This document shows positions 1-29,212 of a stretch of 32,283 nucleotides of DNA, one piece after another. The first letter of the stretch is position 1; every line of letters begins with the position of its first letter. The position numbers were made by a program, and so were the translations under genes. Source of the DNA: Eggerthellaceae bacterium (lineage in GTDB: Bacteria > Actinomycetota > Coriobacteriia > Coriobacteriales > Eggerthellaceae); assembly GCA_030524475.1 (NCBI GenBank), contig JAUNGO010000025.1, forward strand, positions 1 to 32,283, given 5' to 3'. Below the pieces are notes generated by a model. It searched no databases. It saw nothing but the letters and a program-made list of their open reading frames with translations, and had not been told where the DNA came from.

Positions 1-431
1 GTTTGTCAGAAAGTGACGAGGGGGTAGGTCGTTTGTCACATGGGGAAAACCAGGCGGAATGCGGGGAGCAAGCAGCCTCCCGAAATATGACAAACGACCT
101 GTCCCCTCGTCATGATGATGCGAGCTCGGACGGGCTGGACGTACCAAGCGCAACGGCTTCGCTTGCGTCGCCGGACGCGGCGGCGCGCTACGACGACGCG
201 CTGAAAGAGGCTTGCGAGCGCATTGCCAGCCGCTATCTGCTGTCGCAGCGGCAAACCGAGGTGCTGTACCTGCTGGCGCGCGGCCACACGGCGCCCTATA
301 TCCAAGACAAGCTGTGCGTCACGCTGAGCACGGCGAAGTCGCACATCTACAACATATATAAGAAGCTTGACATCCACAAGCAGCACGAGTTGCTGTCGAT
401 GGTGGAATCCGAAATCGAGGACCACGCGTAA
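1..431 (+). CDS. LuxR-type HTH regulator, C-terminal part (5' end outside window)
   Basis: The frame is open to the left window edge, so this is probably the end of a longer protein. TTG at 3 and ATG at 87 are also possible starts. The last 65 or so residues form a LuxR/NarL-type DNA-binding domain: LSQRQTEVLYLLARGHTAPY is followed by the recognition-helix stretch LSTAKSHIYNIYKKLDIH. Coriobacteria commonly carry regulators with a many-helix membrane domain joined to this kind of HTH; that the missing part is such a domain is inference. The region before the HTH (codons about 4-37 of the visible frame) is encoded by a palindromic repeat that occurs again at 23903-23996, so this linker is probably acquired. 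The gene is convergent with the Tat-signal gene. The HTH call is firm; the ligand and targets are unknown. Confidence 0.8.
   Translation, partial: LSESDEGVGRLSHGENQAECGEQAASRNMTNDLSPRHDDASSDGLDVPSATASLASPDAAARYDDALKEACERIASRYLLSQRQTEVLYLLARGHTAPYIQDKLCVTLSTAKSHIYNIYKKLDIHKQHELLSMVESEIEDHA
14..112. repeat. Palindromic repeat family A, copy 1 (inside LuxR-type frame)
   Basis: The arms are 14-41 and 85-112, 28 bp each with 25 of 28 matching, around a 43-bp centre. Each arm carries the core GACCTGTCCCC / GGGGACAGGTC, slightly changed in the left arm, plus GTCGTTTGTCA. The same arm sequence, with small changes, forms the perfect palindrome at 23903-23996. It is read through in frame by the regulator. 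It resembles REP or MITE-type hairpins; no transposase is present in the window. Confidence 0.85.
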
Positions 432-4805: not shown

Positions 4806-5519
4806 CTACGGTTTTATGCCAAGAAAGCGGCGGATGTCAGGATCGGTTTGCGTGAACAGGTCGTCGGGGGTGCATACGACTCGCATTCGTCCATTGAGTA
4901 TGATGCCGATTCGGTCAGCCAACGTGCGTGCCTCGTTGAAATCATGCGTAACGAATACGATTGTGCAGTCGTATTGAGCGTGTACCTCCCGCATAAGGTC
5001 ATACATACGCAGCTTGGTCGATGGGTCGAGCGCTGAAAACGGCTCGTCAAGTAGCAAGATACTGGGTTCAAGGACGAGCGCGCGGGCAAGGGCGGTGCGT
5101 TGTGATTCGCCTCCGCTAATGATGCCAGGGTGTCGATCGGCAAGGTGAGAAATGCCAAACCGTTCCATAATGTCTGCGACACGTGAATGTGCTGCGTCGG
5201 CAGATAGGCCGTTGTGCCGCAAGCCATATGCAATGTTTTCGGCTACGGTTAAATGCGGGAACAGGGCGTAGTCCTGATAAAGTATTCCTAGGTGGCGTTG
5301 TTGAATGGGGAGGCTGCTCACGTCTTTTCCGTCCAGCAGAATACGCCCTTCGTTGAGGGGAAACGCGCCAGCGATTGACTCCATGAGTACGGTTTTGCCC
5401 GATCCGGTTGTCCCAAGTATAGAGAAAATCTCACGCGGTCTAATACTGAGTTCGTTGAGCGCGAGTGTAAAACTCCCCCGCCGTACGCGTACATTCTCTA
5501 TTGTTATGCTACCTGCCAT
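4806..5519 (-). CDS. modC: Molybdate/tungstate ABC transporter ATPase, ModC-like
   Basis: This 237-residue ABC ATPase has Walker A GTTGSGKT (36-43), Q-loop Q82, signature SGGES (135-139), Walker B ILLLDE (154-159) and switch histidine H192. Canonical ModC is about 350 residues with a C-terminal MOP/TOBE molybdate-binding domain. That domain is absent here, so the protein resembles the short ATPases of some Wtp/Tup/Mod systems. The frame runs upstream to 5597, but ATG at 5519 is preferred: homology starts there and it overlaps the permease stop by 11 bases, as in coupled operons. It is the last gene of the operon and converges on the kinase gene across a 49-base gap without an obvious terminator. 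Molybdate rather than tungstate is inferred from the ModA-like binding protein. Confidence 0.85.
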   Translation of the reverse strand: MAGSITIENVRVRRGSFTLALNELSIRPREIFSILGTTGSGKTVLMESIAGAFPLNEGRILLDGKDVSSLPIQQRHLGILYQDYALFPHLTVAENIAYGLRHNGLSADAAHSRVADIMERFGISHLADRHPGIISGGESQRTALARALVLEPSILLLDEPFSALDPSTKLRMYDLMREVHAQYDCTIVFVTHDFNEARTLADRIGIILNGRMRVVCTPDDLFTQTDPDIRRFLGIKP

Positions 5520-6423
5520 GTCGTCGCTCTCCTTCTTTCGGAACCGATGCTCTTCGCAGTCGGTCGAAGGGTGTGCGAGCTTTGTGCGACTCGACACGAG
5601 TTGACCCTATGGGTTTGTTGAGCGCATTGGCTACAACAAGCGTTGCGGCAGAGAGAAGAAGCATGATCATAGCTGTTGCCATGGCGGTTTCCGTATTGCC
5701 CGTTGATATGCTGAGATAAATACTTCCCGGTAGTGTTTCGGTGCGCATGCGCGTAACGCCGACCAACATGAGCGTTGCGCCGAACTCGCCCATGCCGCGC
5801 GCCCACGTGAGAACAAACGTCGAGATCAGCGAGTTGCGGCAAATGGGGAGAATGATAGTGCGAAAAACCTCCCCTGACGTAGCGCCAAGCGTTTTTGCGA
5901 CAAATTCCATGCGTGGATTGACCTCGGCAAACGCTGTACGCACCATGCGAATAGCAAAGGGAAGATTGACGATGAGCTGAGCCATGACGATGCCCGTCGG
6001 CTCGAACACCACGCCGAAACCGACCTCTTTAAGAGCTTTTCCGACGGGAGAAGAGAAGATGAGCAACAAAGCGAAGCCGAGCAAGATGTAGGGAAGGGAA
6101 AGCGTAAGTTCCATCAGGACTTCTGCAGCACGCTTAAAGGGCATGTTGGTCCTGGTGAGCGCGTAAGCGGTAGGTAACGCGAGCGCAAGGCAGATGATCG
6201 TTGAGATGGTGGACGTGACGACGCTCATGCGTAGCGAGAACAGCACTTCCGCCGACGTGACGGCTTCGCTTAGGTGCGTGGCGCCGCCGAGGACAATGGC
6301 AACAACGGCACTCCCTACGAATAGCAAAACACACGTTGCCACTACGATGGAAACACCGGGGAAGACGTCGCGACGTCTTCCCCGGTGTTTCCTTTTTGCA
6401 AGCGGGCTTGTTGCCTCGCTCAT
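5509..6423 (-). CDS. modB: Molybdate/tungstate ABC transporter permease, ModB-like
   Basis: The 304-residue permease has an Arg/Lys-rich N-terminus (about 9-19) and roughly six hydrophobic segments between 23 and 285. The cytoplasmic coupling loop EFVAKTLGATSGEVFRTIIL (about 173-192) matches the EAA motif of binding-protein-dependent permeases. MGEFGATLMLVG is typical of the ModB/CysT group. It should form the membrane channel with the ATPase encoded downstream. It starts three bases after the modA stop and overlaps modC, so the three are co-transcribed. The assignment as molybdate permease rests on family resemblance and on the neighbours; tungstate or sulfate cannot be excluded from this protein alone. 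Confidence 0.88.
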   Translation of the reverse strand: MSEATSPLAKRKHRGRRRDVFPGVSIVVATCVLLFVGSAVVAIVLGGATHLSEAVTSAEVLFSLRMSVVTSTISTIICLALALPTAYALTRTNMPFKRAAEVLMELTLSLPYILLGFALLLIFSSPVGKALKEVGFGVVFEPTGIVMAQLIVNLPFAIRMVRTAFAEVNPRMEFVAKTLGATSGEVFRTIILPICRNSLISTFVLTWARGMGEFGATLMLVGVTRMRTETLPGSIYLSISTGNTETAMATAMIMLLLSAATLVVANALNKPIGSTRVESHKARTPFDRLRRASVPKEGERRHGR

Positions 6424-16925: not shown

Positions 16926-17005
16926 AACGCGGGGCGTGGGTACGGGGAGGCGGGGGTGTGAACACGGGGGCGTAGCCCTTCACCCCAGCCCCCGCGTTCA
17001 GCCCC
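16926..17005. repeat. Inverted-repeat family B, copy 2
   Basis: Between the fusion gene's start and the MFS gene's end lie GAACGCGGGGCGTGGG, GTGAACACGGGGGCGTAG and CCCCCGCGTTCAGCCCC. They share the CGAACRCGGGGGCGTAG core with 20000-20067. Arms are imperfect. Confidence 0.5.
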
Positions 17006-19403: not shown

Positions 19404-19493
19404 AAGGCGAACGCGGGGCGTGGCGACCACGGGGACGCAGCTCTGTTTGCTGAACCGGCGAACACGGCTACGTCCCCGCGTTCGCCGGTTCAG
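19404..19493. repeat. Inverted-repeat family B, copy 3, between convergent genes
   Basis: CTGAACCGGCGAAC (19450-19463) and GTTCGCCGGTTCAG (19480-19493) are perfectly complementary 14-bp arms. A further GCGAACGCGGGGCGTGG lies to the left. The inner CTACGTCCCCGCGTTCGCC matches the right arm of copy 4. Because two genes converge here, the hairpin may serve as a bidirectional terminator. Confidence 0.65.
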
Positions 19494-19904: not shown

Positions 19905-19999
19905 GATGATATCCCTTCTCTGAGGTTGATTTCCGAACGGGAACCATTATACCTTCCAGAAACACGACAGGGCGCGGGGAGGGTGCGGGGCGCGGGGGC

Positions 20000-20067
20000 G
20001 GCGAACGCGGGGGCGTAGCCCTGTTCACCGGTTCTGAGTGGAGCGGAACTACGCCCCCGCGTTCGCC
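20000..20067. repeat. Inverted-repeat family B, copy 4 (moaE-like/lysA divergent gap)
   Basis: GGCGAACGCGGGGGCGTAG (the last 18 bases at 20001-20018) and CTACGCCCCCGCGTTCGC (20049-20066) form a perfect 19-bp inverted repeat with one flanking pair and a 30-base centre. The 349-base gap at 19905-20253 otherwise holds only the two divergent promoters and the lysA leader. Confidence 0.75.
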
Positions 20068-20147
20068 CCGCGCCTTTTCTTCGCTTCCTCTTGCGGGTAT
20101 TTCCCCATAATTTACGTCCTTGAAAAACTTGACGCACCGCCCCGCGT

Positions 20148-20153
20148 TATACT
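20148..20153 (+). promoter_or_regulatory. Candidate -10 box for lysA
   Basis: TATACT is followed by GGGAAAAC and lies about 100 bases before the lysA ATG. TTGACG upstream is only 13 bases away, so the -35 is unclear. The leader shows no lysine riboswitch. Confidence 0.4.
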
Positions 20154-20253
20154 GGGAAAACTTTGCGTGCAGACCACCGTTTGCGCGCCGCGATTCAAGC
20201 AACGCCGATTGAAGGGCAACGCCGCCCGTTGAACGCATACGAAAGGAACCGCC

Positions 20254-21694: not shown

Positions 21695-22978
21695 ATGGCA
21701 ATTCGCGTTGGCCTCGTCGGCACCGGCACGGTGGGCGGCGGCTGCATCGACATCATCCTGAAGCACGCGGACGACTTCAAGCGCCACTACGGCATCGACA
21801 TCGAGTTGGCGCGCGTGTGCTCGCTCGACTCGCGCGAGGCCGAGGCGCACGGCGTGGGGCACCTGTTCACCGACAACTTCCGCGACATCATCGACGACCC
21901 CGCGATTGACCTGGTTATCGAGCTGATCGGCGGCACCACGTTTGCACGCACGGTGGTCATCGACGCGCTCAACGCGGGCAAGAACGTGGTCACGGCCAAC
22001 AAGGCGCTCATGGCCACCTACGGCCAGGAGGTCATGGAAACCGCCGAGCGCAATGGGCGCGAGATCGCGTTCGAGGCGAGCGTGGGCGGCGGCATTCCCA
22101 TCATCGGGCCGCTGAAGCATTCACTCATCGCCAACGAGATCACTTCGGTCATGGGCATCGTGAACGGCACCACCAACTATATGCTCACGCGCATGGACGA
22201 GGACGGCATGGACTACGACGCCGTGCTGGCCGAGGCGCAGGCGAAGGGCTTCGCCGAGGCGAACCCCTCGGCCGACGTGGACGGCTACGACGCCGCCGCC
22301 AAGATTGCCATCCTGGCGTCCATCGCGTTCAACTCGCGCGTGACCATCGACGACGTGTACACGCGCGGCATCACCAACATCACGCCGATCGACTTGGAGG
22401 CGGCGCGCGACATGGGATATGTGGTGAAGCTTTTGGCCATCGCGCATCGCACCGACCGCGGCATTGACGTGCGCGTGCACCCCACCATGATTCCCGCCGA
22501 GCACCAGATGGCGAAGGTCAACGGCGTGTTCAACGCCATCTACGTGACGGGCGACTTCGTGGGCGAGACGATGTTCTTCGGCGAAGGCGCGGGCGCGGGC
22601 GCGGCGGCGAGTGCCGTCATGGGTGACGTGCTGGAAGTGGCGCGCCACATGCAGCAGGGCATCGCGCCCATCGTGGGCTGCACCTGCACCGACGAGCTGC
22701 CCATCCTGCCGATCGAGGAGCTGTCGATGAAGTACTACATCCGCTTCTCGGTGGCCGACCGCCCCGGCGTTTTGGCGGCGATGGCGGGCGTGTTCGCGAA
22801 GCGCGGCGTGAGCGTGCACTCCGTGGTGCAGCGCGGGCAAAAGAGCGGCGGCACGGTGGAGATCGTCTACGTGACGCATACCGCCGAGGAGCGCGCCATC
22901 CGCGAGGTTATCGAGGAAATCCGCAGCCTCGACGACGTCCTCCACGGCGACCCCAGCCTCATCCGCGTGGAGGAATAG
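21695..22978 (+). CDS. hom: Homoserine dehydrogenase
   Basis: Homoserine dehydrogenase reduces aspartate semialdehyde to homoserine. The 427-residue protein has the NAD(P) Rossmann motif GLVGTGTVGGG (6-16), KNVVTANKALMA, IVNGTTNYML and the central catalytic domain with DVDGYDAAAK. A C-terminal ACT domain from about 347 (RFSVADRPGVLAAMAGVF) suggests feedback inhibition, usually by threonine in this family. The ATG at 21695 has AAAAGGAAA upstream. Its stop TAG shares one base with the GTG start of the HAD gene (TAGTG), so the two are translationally coupled. Homoserine feeds metA downstream. Confidence 0.95.
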   Translation: MAIRVGLVGTGTVGGGCIDIILKHADDFKRHYGIDIELARVCSLDSREAEAHGVGHLFTDNFRDIIDDPAIDLVIELIGGTTFARTVVIDALNAGKNVVTANKALMATYGQEVMETAERNGREIAFEASVGGGIPIIGPLKHSLIANEITSVMGIVNGTTNYMLTRMDEDGMDYDAVLAEAQAKGFAEANPSADVDGYDAAAKIAILASIAFNSRVTIDDVYTRGITNITPIDLEAARDMGYVVKLLAIAHRTDRGIDVRVHPTMIPAEHQMAKVNGVFNAIYVTGDFVGETMFFGEGAGAGAAASAVMGDVLEVARHMQQGIAPIVGCTCTDELPILPIEELSMKYYIRFSVADRPGVLAAMAGVFAKRGVSVHSVVQRGQKSGGTVEIVYVTHTAEERAIREVIEEIRSLDDVLHGDPSLIRVEE

Positions 22979-23889
22979 TGCCTGATCTAGGTGTTATTTT
23001 CGATTGCGACGGGACGCTTATCGACTCGATGGCGGCTTGGCGGGAGCTTGAGGCCAGCTTGGCGCGCCAGGCGGGCGCTGAGCTGACGAAAGCCGACACC
23101 GACGCGCTCACCACCATGACCATCCCCGAGTGCGGGGCGTATTTGCATGAGAAGTTCGGGCTGGGCACGTCGGGCGTCGACGTCGAGGGCATGATCGACG
23201 CGTTCATGCTCGACTTCTACGCGAACCGCGCTGTGGCGCGCCCCGGCGTAATGCCGTTCGTGGAGGGCTTGGCGGCGGCGGGCGTGCCGATGGCGGTGGC
23301 GTCCTCCACGCCGAAGGCGCTGCTGGAGGCGGGTTTGGCGCATGCGGGCATCGCGCCGTACTTGCGTGCCATCGTTTCTGTCGACGACGTGGGGAAATCG
23401 AAGCGCGAGCCGGCGGTGTACAACCGCGCGCGCGAGGCGCTTGGCACCGCGCGCGCGCAAACGTGGGGCTTCGAGGACGCGCTGTATGCCATTCGCACGC
23501 TGAACGCGGCGGGGTATCGCACGTTTGGCATCTACGACTGCGATATGTCGGGCACATGGGTCGACTTGCAAGCCGAGGCCGACCGCGCCGCCCGCTCGTT
23601 CACGGACGTGTCGGCGGCGGAATTTCTGGAGTGGAATGCCGACCGCGCGAGCGCTTGCCACGCGCAAGGCGAGCCTCACGTGCGCGTGGTGTACAAGCCG
23701 GTGGCGCCCCGCGCGAGCGCGGGGGAGGGCGCACAAGGTTGCAGGGGCGCAGGCGCGAGTTCGGGCGTGAGCGACCCCGCGTTGCGCAATCCCTATCTGC
23801 GCGCGGAAAACGAGGACGACGACGGTTACGACCCTTATTCCGACCGCCGCGAGGAACCCCCTCTGTTCGAGGAAAACCCCTGGGATTAA
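22978..23889 (+). CDS. HAD-family hydrolase (phosphatase)
   Basis: The 303-residue protein is a HAD phosphatase of the phosphoglucomutase-like branch. The nucleophile motif is FDCDGT (D9, D11), the motif II serine/threonine lies in VASSTPK (107-113), K142 follows VGKS, and GFEDALYAI (164-172) is motif III. A helical cap sits at about 20-85. The last 75 residues or so are a low-complexity, finally acidic tail (ENEDDDGYDPYSDRREEPP) not expected in the family. The GTG start overlaps the hom stop by one base. The substrate is unknown; coupling to hom hints at a phosphorylated amino-acid or cofactor intermediate, but this is only position. Confidence 0.88.
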   Translation: MPDLGVIFDCDGTLIDSMAAWRELEASLARQAGAELTKADTDALTTMTIPECGAYLHEKFGLGTSGVDVEGMIDAFMLDFYANRAVARPGVMPFVEGLAAAGVPMAVASSTPKALLEAGLAHAGIAPYLRAIVSVDDVGKSKREPAVYNRAREALGTARAQTWGFEDALYAIRTLNAAGYRTFGIYDCDMSGTWVDLQAEADRAARSFTDVSAAEFLEWNADRASACHAQGEPHVRVVYKPVAPRASAGEGAQGCRGAGASSGVSDPALRNPYLRAENEDDDGYDPYSDRREEPPLFEENPWD

Positions 23890-23902: not shown

Positions 23903-23996
23903 CGTGACAAGGGGACAGGTCATTTGTCATATTGCGAAAGGCTGTTCGTTCCCTTGCGCTTTATCAATATGACAAATGACCTGTCCCCTTGTCACG
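23903..23996. repeat. Palindromic repeat family A, copy 2 (perfect 32-bp arms)
   Basis: The arms 23903-23934 and 23965-23996 are perfect inverted copies around a 30-base centre, which itself holds AAAG/CTTT. The core is GGGGACAGGTCATTTGTCAT. It lies between the convergent HAD and metA genes. The near-identical copy at 14-112 is inside a coding frame, so this is a dispersed element rather than only a terminator. Confidence 0.95.
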
Positions 23997-27673: not shown

Positions 27674-29212
27674 ATGGAACGCGAAGTGGCGTGGAAAAAG
27701 TACGACGAAGCGCAGCTGGCGGAGGTTGACGAGCTGGCCGCTGCGTACATCGACTTCATCTCGCAGAACAAAACCGAGCGTGAGTGCGCGGCGGCGGCTA
27801 TCGAGCAGGCCGAGGCGGTGGGCTACACGTCGCTGGAAGAAGCGGCGCGCGAGGGCCGCGCGCTCAAGCCGGGCGACAAGGTATGGGCGTCGGCGCACGG
27901 CAAGGCCGTCATCTTGGCGCACATCGGCGAGGAGCCGCTTGCGCGTGGCATGAACATTCTGGGCGCGCACATCGACTCGCCGCGTTTGGACATCAAGCAG
28001 AACCCGCTGTACGAGAAAGACGGGTTTGCCCTGCTCGACACGCACTATTACGGCGGCATCAAGAACTACCAGTGGGTTGCGCTGCCGCTGGCGCTGCATG
28101 GCGTGGTGGCGAAAACCGACGGCTCGGTGGTGCAGGTGGTCGTTGGCGAAGACGCGTCCGATCCGGTTTTCTGCGTGAGCGACCTGCTGCCGCATTTGGG
28201 GCGCGCGCAGATGGAGAAGACGGCCAACAAGGTGATCGAAGGGGAAGACCTCGACTTGTTAGTGGGGAACAGGCCGCTGCGTGCGCCCGGCGCCAGGCCC
28301 GCCGGCGCGGGCGAGGCACCGTTGCGTTCGGAAGCTGCGCAGCCCTCACTCCACGGTACGTCGCCCGCGTCAGCGGGCCTGGCGACAGGTGAGGCGGGTT
28401 GCGGAGTTCCCCATCAGCAGGCCGAAGCGGAAGAAAAAGACCCTGTGAAGGCTTTGGTGTTGCGGCTTTTGGAGGAGAAGTACGGCATTGCGGAAGAGGA
28501 CTTCCTCTCGGCTGAGCTTGAAGTTGTTCCCGCTGGTCGGGCGCGTGAGATGGGGTTTGACCGCAGCATGGTCATCGGTTATGGGCAAGACGACCGTGTG
28601 TGCGCCTACACGTCGCTTGTGGCGCAGCTGGCGCTGGCCGAGCCAGGTGTGCCGACGCCGCTTCGCACGGCCGTGACGGTGCTCGTCGACAAGGAAGAGA
28701 TCGGCAGCGTGGGCGCCACGGGTATGGAGTCGCTGTTCTTCGAGAACACGATTGCCGAGATCATGGAGCTGGCGGGCGAGGGCGGCGTGCTGCCGCTGCG
28801 GCGCGCGCTGTCTCACTCGCGTATGCTGTCCTCGGATGTGAGCGCGGGCTTCGACCCTGCGTACGCTAGCGTGTTCGAGGCGAAGAACGCCGCCTTCTTG
28901 GGACGCGGCCTCGTGTTCAACAAGTACATGGGCGCGCGCGGCAAAAGCGGCAGCAACGACGCGAGCGCCGAGTACATGGCGCGCATTCGACGCGTAATGG
29001 ACGATGCGCAGGTAACGTTCCAGACGGCCGAGATCGGCAAGGTCGACGCGGGCGGCGGCGGAACGATCGCCTTCATTCCCGCGCGCTACGGCATGGACGT
29101 CATCGACTCGGGCGTGCCGGTGCTCTCGATGCATTCTCCGTGGGAGGTCACGAGCAAAGCCGACATCTACGAGGCGCGCCGTGGCTACGAGGTTTTTCTG
29201 CTGAACGCGTAG
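27674..29212 (+). CDS. M18-family aminopeptidase with repeat-encoded insert
   Basis: This 512-residue zinc aminopeptidase of family M18 (aspartyl-aminopeptidase-like) has metal-binding H99/D101 in GAHIDSPRLD, the KEEIGSVGATGMES segment with the catalytic glutamates, SSDVSAGFDPAY and a C-terminal SMHSPWEVTSKAD with a metal histidine. It trims acidic or other N-terminal residues in the cytosol. Residues about 199-254, between LLVGNRPL and EEKDPVKALVLRLL, are low-complexity and not expected in the family. The DNA there is a 36-bp-arm inverted repeat (28289-28386), so a palindromic element has apparently been inserted in frame. GAAAGGACGG precedes the ATG. It is convergent with the purF-like gene across a strong terminator. 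Confidence 0.93.
   Translation: MEREVAWKKYDEAQLAEVDELAAAYIDFISQNKTERECAAAAIEQAEAVGYTSLEEAAREGRALKPGDKVWASAHGKAVILAHIGEEPLARGMNILGAHIDSPRLDIKQNPLYEKDGFALLDTHYYGGIKNYQWVALPLALHGVVAKTDGSVVQVVVGEDASDPVFCVSDLLPHLGRAQMEKTANKVIEGEDLDLLVGNRPLRAPGARPAGAGEAPLRSEAAQPSLHGTSPASAGLATGEAGCGVPHQQAEAEEKDPVKALVLRLLEEKYGIAEEDFLSAELEVVPAGRAREMGFDRSMVIGYGQDDRVCAYTSLVAQLALAEPGVPTPLRTAVTVLVDKEEIGSVGATGMESLFFENTIAEIMELAGEGGVLPLRRALSHSRMLSSDVSAGFDPAYASVFEAKNAAFLGRGLVFNKYMGARGKSGSNDASAEYMARIRRVMDDAQVTFQTAEIGKVDAGGGGTIAFIPARYGMDVIDSGVPVLSMHSPWEVTSKADIYEARRGYEVFLLNA
28289..28386. repeat. Inverted repeat inside the M18 aminopeptidase gene
   Basis: The arms 28289-28324 and 28351-28386 match at 30 of 36 positions; the outer 26 match at 23. 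The core is GCCAGGCCCG with GCGGGCGA. The loop is 26 bases. The element keeps the reading frame and encodes residues about 206-238, inside a family-atypical insert. Its sequence differs from families A and B. Confidence 0.85.

Follow-up and report, generated by a model that had tools for sequence, protein, structure and literature searches.

The window analysed here is the whole 32,283-nt contig C97 of genome G000, a 2.3-Mb Eggerthellaceae bacterium assembly of 97 contigs that is 85% complete. Base 1 of the window is a contig end, and it truncates an open frame on the forward strand (positions 3-431) that encodes the C-terminal part of a LuxR-type regulator. A domain search placed a GerE/LuxR helix-turn-helix (HTH) at residues 80-133 of this frame (positions 240-401), and the G+C content by codon position was 0.63, 0.42 and 0.74, a pattern seen in coding DNA. 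Upstream of the HTH, and preceded by only 13 bases of contig (positions 1-13), lies a 99-bp palindrome at positions 14-112. Its left arm (14-41) consists of a divergent 25-bp unit plus 3 bp and is complementary at 25/28 positions to the right arm (85-112), with a 43-nt spacer (42-84) between them. This palindrome and its pairing, which a sequence-only reading had reported, were borne out by inverted-repeat finding and by folding against shuffles; single-strand folding gave z-scores of -6.7 as DNA and -8.2 as RNA, and none of 200 shuffles folded as well in either form. The regulator frame is open across the element, which occupies residues 4-37 and is predicted to contribute about 33 hydrophilic residues to the protein. 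The same reading had proposed an in-frame insertion of a REP-like element within a LuxR-type regulator, and our results agree with it, placing the element between the regulator's probable membrane domain and the HTH. The element does stand before the HTH in the same open frame, but "just before" was a loose description, as about 42 residues separate the two.

The palindrome at 14-112 was found to be a divergent copy of a dispersed family. Arm matches with at most 3 mismatches numbered 130 in the 2.3-Mb genome, while a reversed-pattern control gave 0. A survey of 198 kb of this genome yielded 31 inverted pairs, of which 19 measured 90 bp and 6 measured 89 bp, and 56 single units. The terminal repeat unit is 25 bp long, consensus arms end in TGAC/GTCA, and most arms carry GGGGACAG, which is present only in the right arm of the copy at 14-112. 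This copy also exceeds the usual length of 90 bp by 9 bp. The 90-bp copies mostly have a single open frame on each strand. The looser pairing at 14-112 had been attributed to age or to coding constraint. That explanation was not supported, as 8 of the 26 full-length copies (14-112 included) pair at 25/28 or fewer positions, while a copy read in frame within an MtaB gene pairs at 28/28. At one locus (G000:C33:335-517), an element pair was nested within another pair, 47 bp from each outer end.

A second copy in the window is located between convergent ORFs at positions 23903-23996. Its perfect 32-bp arms, described earlier, were confirmed for the outer 32 bp from sequence, and the repeat finder reported 38-nt arms with 95% complementarity. 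We tried this copy as a clean empty-site comparison and abandoned it, because the tail of the neighbouring gene is inverted in genomes G001 and G002. Specifically, the 3' portion of this gene (22978-23889), at positions 23670-23889, matches both genomes in reverse orientation between collinear flanks; judging by these matches, the segment is a local inversion beside the second copy. Several other repeats were observed in the window. A second dispersed motif, GAACACGGGGGCGTAGCCC-like, occurs at 16929-16979, 19452-19487 and 19972-20034. A perfect 44-bp palindrome with no spacer lies at 6349-6392 within the ORF range 5509-6423, and an imperfect 42-nt inverted repeat with 81% complementarity lies at 28286-28389 within a long ORF range.

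The arm showed a patchy spread outside this genome. No match was found in two same-genus genomes that were searched for it, and 16 of 138 genomes of the host's family carried arm matches with at most 2 mismatches. Among named genomes, a scan returned 33 stretches, labelled Coriobacteriales, Coriobacteriaceae, Eggerthellaceae, Atopobiaceae and, for one MAG, Actinomycetes. Moreover, in other Coriobacteriia the arm flanks tyrosine-transposase genes of the RAYT/TIRYT-like kind. Exact arms flank a Y1 transposase gene in genome G086 and in Coriobacteriales bacterium OH1046, an exact arm overlaps the 3' end of a Y1 transposase gene in one further MAG, and in genome G155 such a gene is bounded on both sides by 90-bp copies. 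Counting arms with up to 2 mismatches, 4 of the 11 distinct RAYT ORFs in the loci examined had arms no further than 600 bp away, 3 of these ORFs being flanked on both sides, and the other 7 had no such arm nearby. All five transposases tested scored above the cut-off for Pfam Y1_Tnp and matched NCBIfam REP_Tyr_transpos below its cut-off, and, as regards the C-terminal HTH of TIRYT transposases, four of the five gave HTH matches that were weak and below Pfam cut-offs. Searches of G000 with the Pfam profile and with a purpose-built alignment found no RAYT gene in this 85%-complete genome, and none was found in the 99%-complete genome G123, itself a carrier of the repeat.

The N-terminal part of the regulator was sought by searching G000 with an alignment of the regulator membrane domain, which gave matches on contigs C39, C38 and C53. 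The matches on C39 and C38 each have their own HTH. Contig C53, which has a 10-N scaffold gap earlier in its sequence, ends within a LuxR membrane-domain gene 33 bases past the match and without an HTH of its own. Loci L162-L167, found by their likeness to the C53 domain, matched the C97 HTH with 62-66% identity over 74-80 aa (103-108 bits) and topped the list of its matches narrowly, other paralogues reaching 102-103 bits. Homology and the positions of the contig ends thus suggest that the regulator's membrane domain probably lies at the end of C53 and that C53 and C97 may carry the two halves of a single gene, broken at the element or close to it and putatively continuous in frame across the gap. 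No sequence overlap was found between the two contig ends, and no synteny was found, in the stretches compared, between C53 and the G001 region beside the C97 match. A LuxR gene of G001, near the match to the window gene at 522-2270, was considered as an orthologue and rejected, having 36% identity over 115 aa. In 12 relatives and a wider alignment, the linkers were long, hypervariable in length and sequence, and free of the element, so they allow no clean comparison by which a gain of just these 33 codons could be shown. In genome G074, which holds the closest relative of the C53 domain, a variant arm (CATTAGACGTGTCCC...) was seen as two close inverted pairs, at G074:C20:10206-10263 and 20125-20182.

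These data bear on whether the regulator is intact. Because only 13 bases of contig precede the element, the regulator might be split or decayed, with the element marking a pseudogene breakpoint or an accidental start, and with only an HTH protein made from the ATG at 87-89, or nothing at all. The right arm does provide this ATG, as had been pointed out, and it is in frame, with no other in-frame ATG, GTG or TTG between it and the HTH. As a start it is unlikely, since the regulator should have a membrane domain upstream, the ATG falls within a predicted stem, and the sequence about 5-12 nt before it contains nothing resembling a Shine-Dalgarno sequence. A matching membrane domain, one with no HTH of its own, does stop at another contig end, and the G+C pattern of the frame is that of coding DNA, both of which argue against decay. 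We therefore regard a split or decayed regulator as unlikely. An assembly artefact at the contig end, where a repeat was added or collapsed and the true linker differs, would fit with the observation that contigs C71, C69 and C44 of G000 also end near an arm, and that the first 8 bases of the window are identical to the inner end of an arm unit. However, the regulator frame continues open for 300 bp after the right arm, and the left arm and spacer have their own sequence, which is no copy of another listed locus, making an artefact very improbable. Retention of the hairpin as a functional RNA or DNA structure, controlling translation or the transcript, would draw on the very stable predicted RNA stem of bases 1-125 (-65 kcal/mol), but an Rfam search of the window gave no match, and the copies are dispersed, absent from same-genus genomes and variable in pairing; such a role appears extremely improbable.

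We further studied whether other copies are read inside genes. Each of the 87 copies was checked for ORFs running across it and for G+C by codon position, a survey that may have missed some. Six copies were flagged, and seven ORFs (these six and one found by eye) were submitted to Pfam; in three of them, domains either flanked the element or spanned it. The ECF S-component gene has 140 bp between matched flanks in G000 and 41 bp in the same-genus genome G001, a gain of 99 bp that is in frame and lies in a loop. This insert is not a clean copy, as it contains one arm and a portion of the interior, and lies next to another repeat motif; on contig C38, where this gene lies, a motif similar to the GAACACGGGGGCGTAGCCC-like one adjoins the element in the insert. 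In the MtaB gene, an in-frame 90-bp copy whose arms are perfect separates the UPF0004 domain from the radical-SAM domain. Over the range that aligns, the MtaB protein exceeds its family profile by only about 8 residues, so the element may have replaced linker sequence. In LysRS, one in-frame unit separates the synthetase core from the tRNA-binding domain. The peptides read from these copies are alike, being DKGTGRLS or DKGTGHLS in ECF, MtaB and LysRS and DEGVGRLS in the C97 regulator. The DKGTGRLS-like peptide was on the same strand and in the same frame in all eight ORF candidates viewed; four of the eight are established as coding on both sides, and the other four are putative. A comparison of the flanks of the 87 copies with about 1.02 Mb of G001 matched both sides for 17 copies, and for 12 of the 17 in one stretch and one orientation; the ECF site alone was both close and simple. 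Orthologues of MtaB and LysRS were not found in the compared sequence of G001.

Based on the above results, we consider it very probable that 14-112 is a non-autonomous palindrome of the TIRtron/REPIN type, amplified within the species and spread by a RAYT/TIRYT, which landed in frame in a tolerant linker of the LuxR-type regulator. The element would be a REPIN-like inverted doublet of the 25-bp terminal repeat carrying GGGGACAG. Its mobilisation would probably be due to a tyrosine (HUH/Y1) transposase of the RAYT/TIRYT kind, acting most likely on a single-stranded hairpin. One copy would then have entered the linker of the membrane-domain regulator in the element's open frame and been tolerated because the linker is unconstrained, being translated as hydrophilic residues with presumably neutral effect. 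A broader and rather doubtful possibility is that a TIRYT-type element, having expanded in a single Eggerthellaceae-like species, provides unrelated proteins again and again with a preformed hydrophilic linker or loop. If so, new interdomain linkers would arise recurrently by in-frame insertion in bacteria other than Rickettsia, and some proteins with element-derived linkers may work differently. Otherwise the insertions are as the literature predicts, persisting in flexible linkers and loops. The in-frame ECF case offers a comparison with a same-genus orthologue.

In-frame insertions of such palindromes are already known from other bacteria. According to PMC3733652, REPs occur inside genes, where dimers or groups that have inserted contribute 20 to 30 residues, and insertions in linkers or loops may be neutral. 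In the literature under open licence that was searched, nothing relevant paired these elements with Eggerthella or Coriobacteria. Rickettsia palindromic elements (RPEs) are described, in PMC10969869 and PMC3733652, as palindromes in frame in genes of unrelated function, and the copies in ECF, MtaB, LysRS and the C97 regulator resemble them in this respect. They differ in sequence and lineage, and the arm studied here is tied to RAYT genes in other genomes, whereas the latter source assigns RPEs to CGTC-ended repeats without a dedicated transposase. The arms here have TGAC/GTCA ends and no CGTC tag at one end.

REPINs, defined as inverted doublets of a short palindromic unit in PMC3116915, share with the present family the inverted doublets at fixed spacing (25 of the 31 pairs span 89-90 bp), the conserved arms and variable spacer, and the folding into a hairpin. 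The differences are that no GTAG-type tag was present at the arm ends of the copies listed, that no RAYT was found in the genome, and that some copies lie inside genes. For TIRtrons/TIRYT, PMC3733652 describes GGGGWSAS in inverted repeats flanking a Y1 transposase gene, together with dispersed singles and dimers; GGGGWSAS is given as the TIRYT consensus there and in PMC6006769. As far as word counts show, Coriobacteriia are not named in these two papers (0 for actinobacteria and slackia in one, 0 for coriobacter and eggerthella in the other). The arm's GGGGACAG fits this consensus, and repeats flanking a Y1 transposase gene were found in other genomes only, the difference being that no transposase was found in the genome of the window. 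Since the arm flanks transposase genes elsewhere and carries GGGGWSAS, we classify the family as a non-autonomous element of the TIRtron/REPIN type. TIRtrons, probably subclass 2.1 of PMC6006769, are among the closest known systems, and the present family extends such elements, with coding insertions, to the Coriobacteriia.
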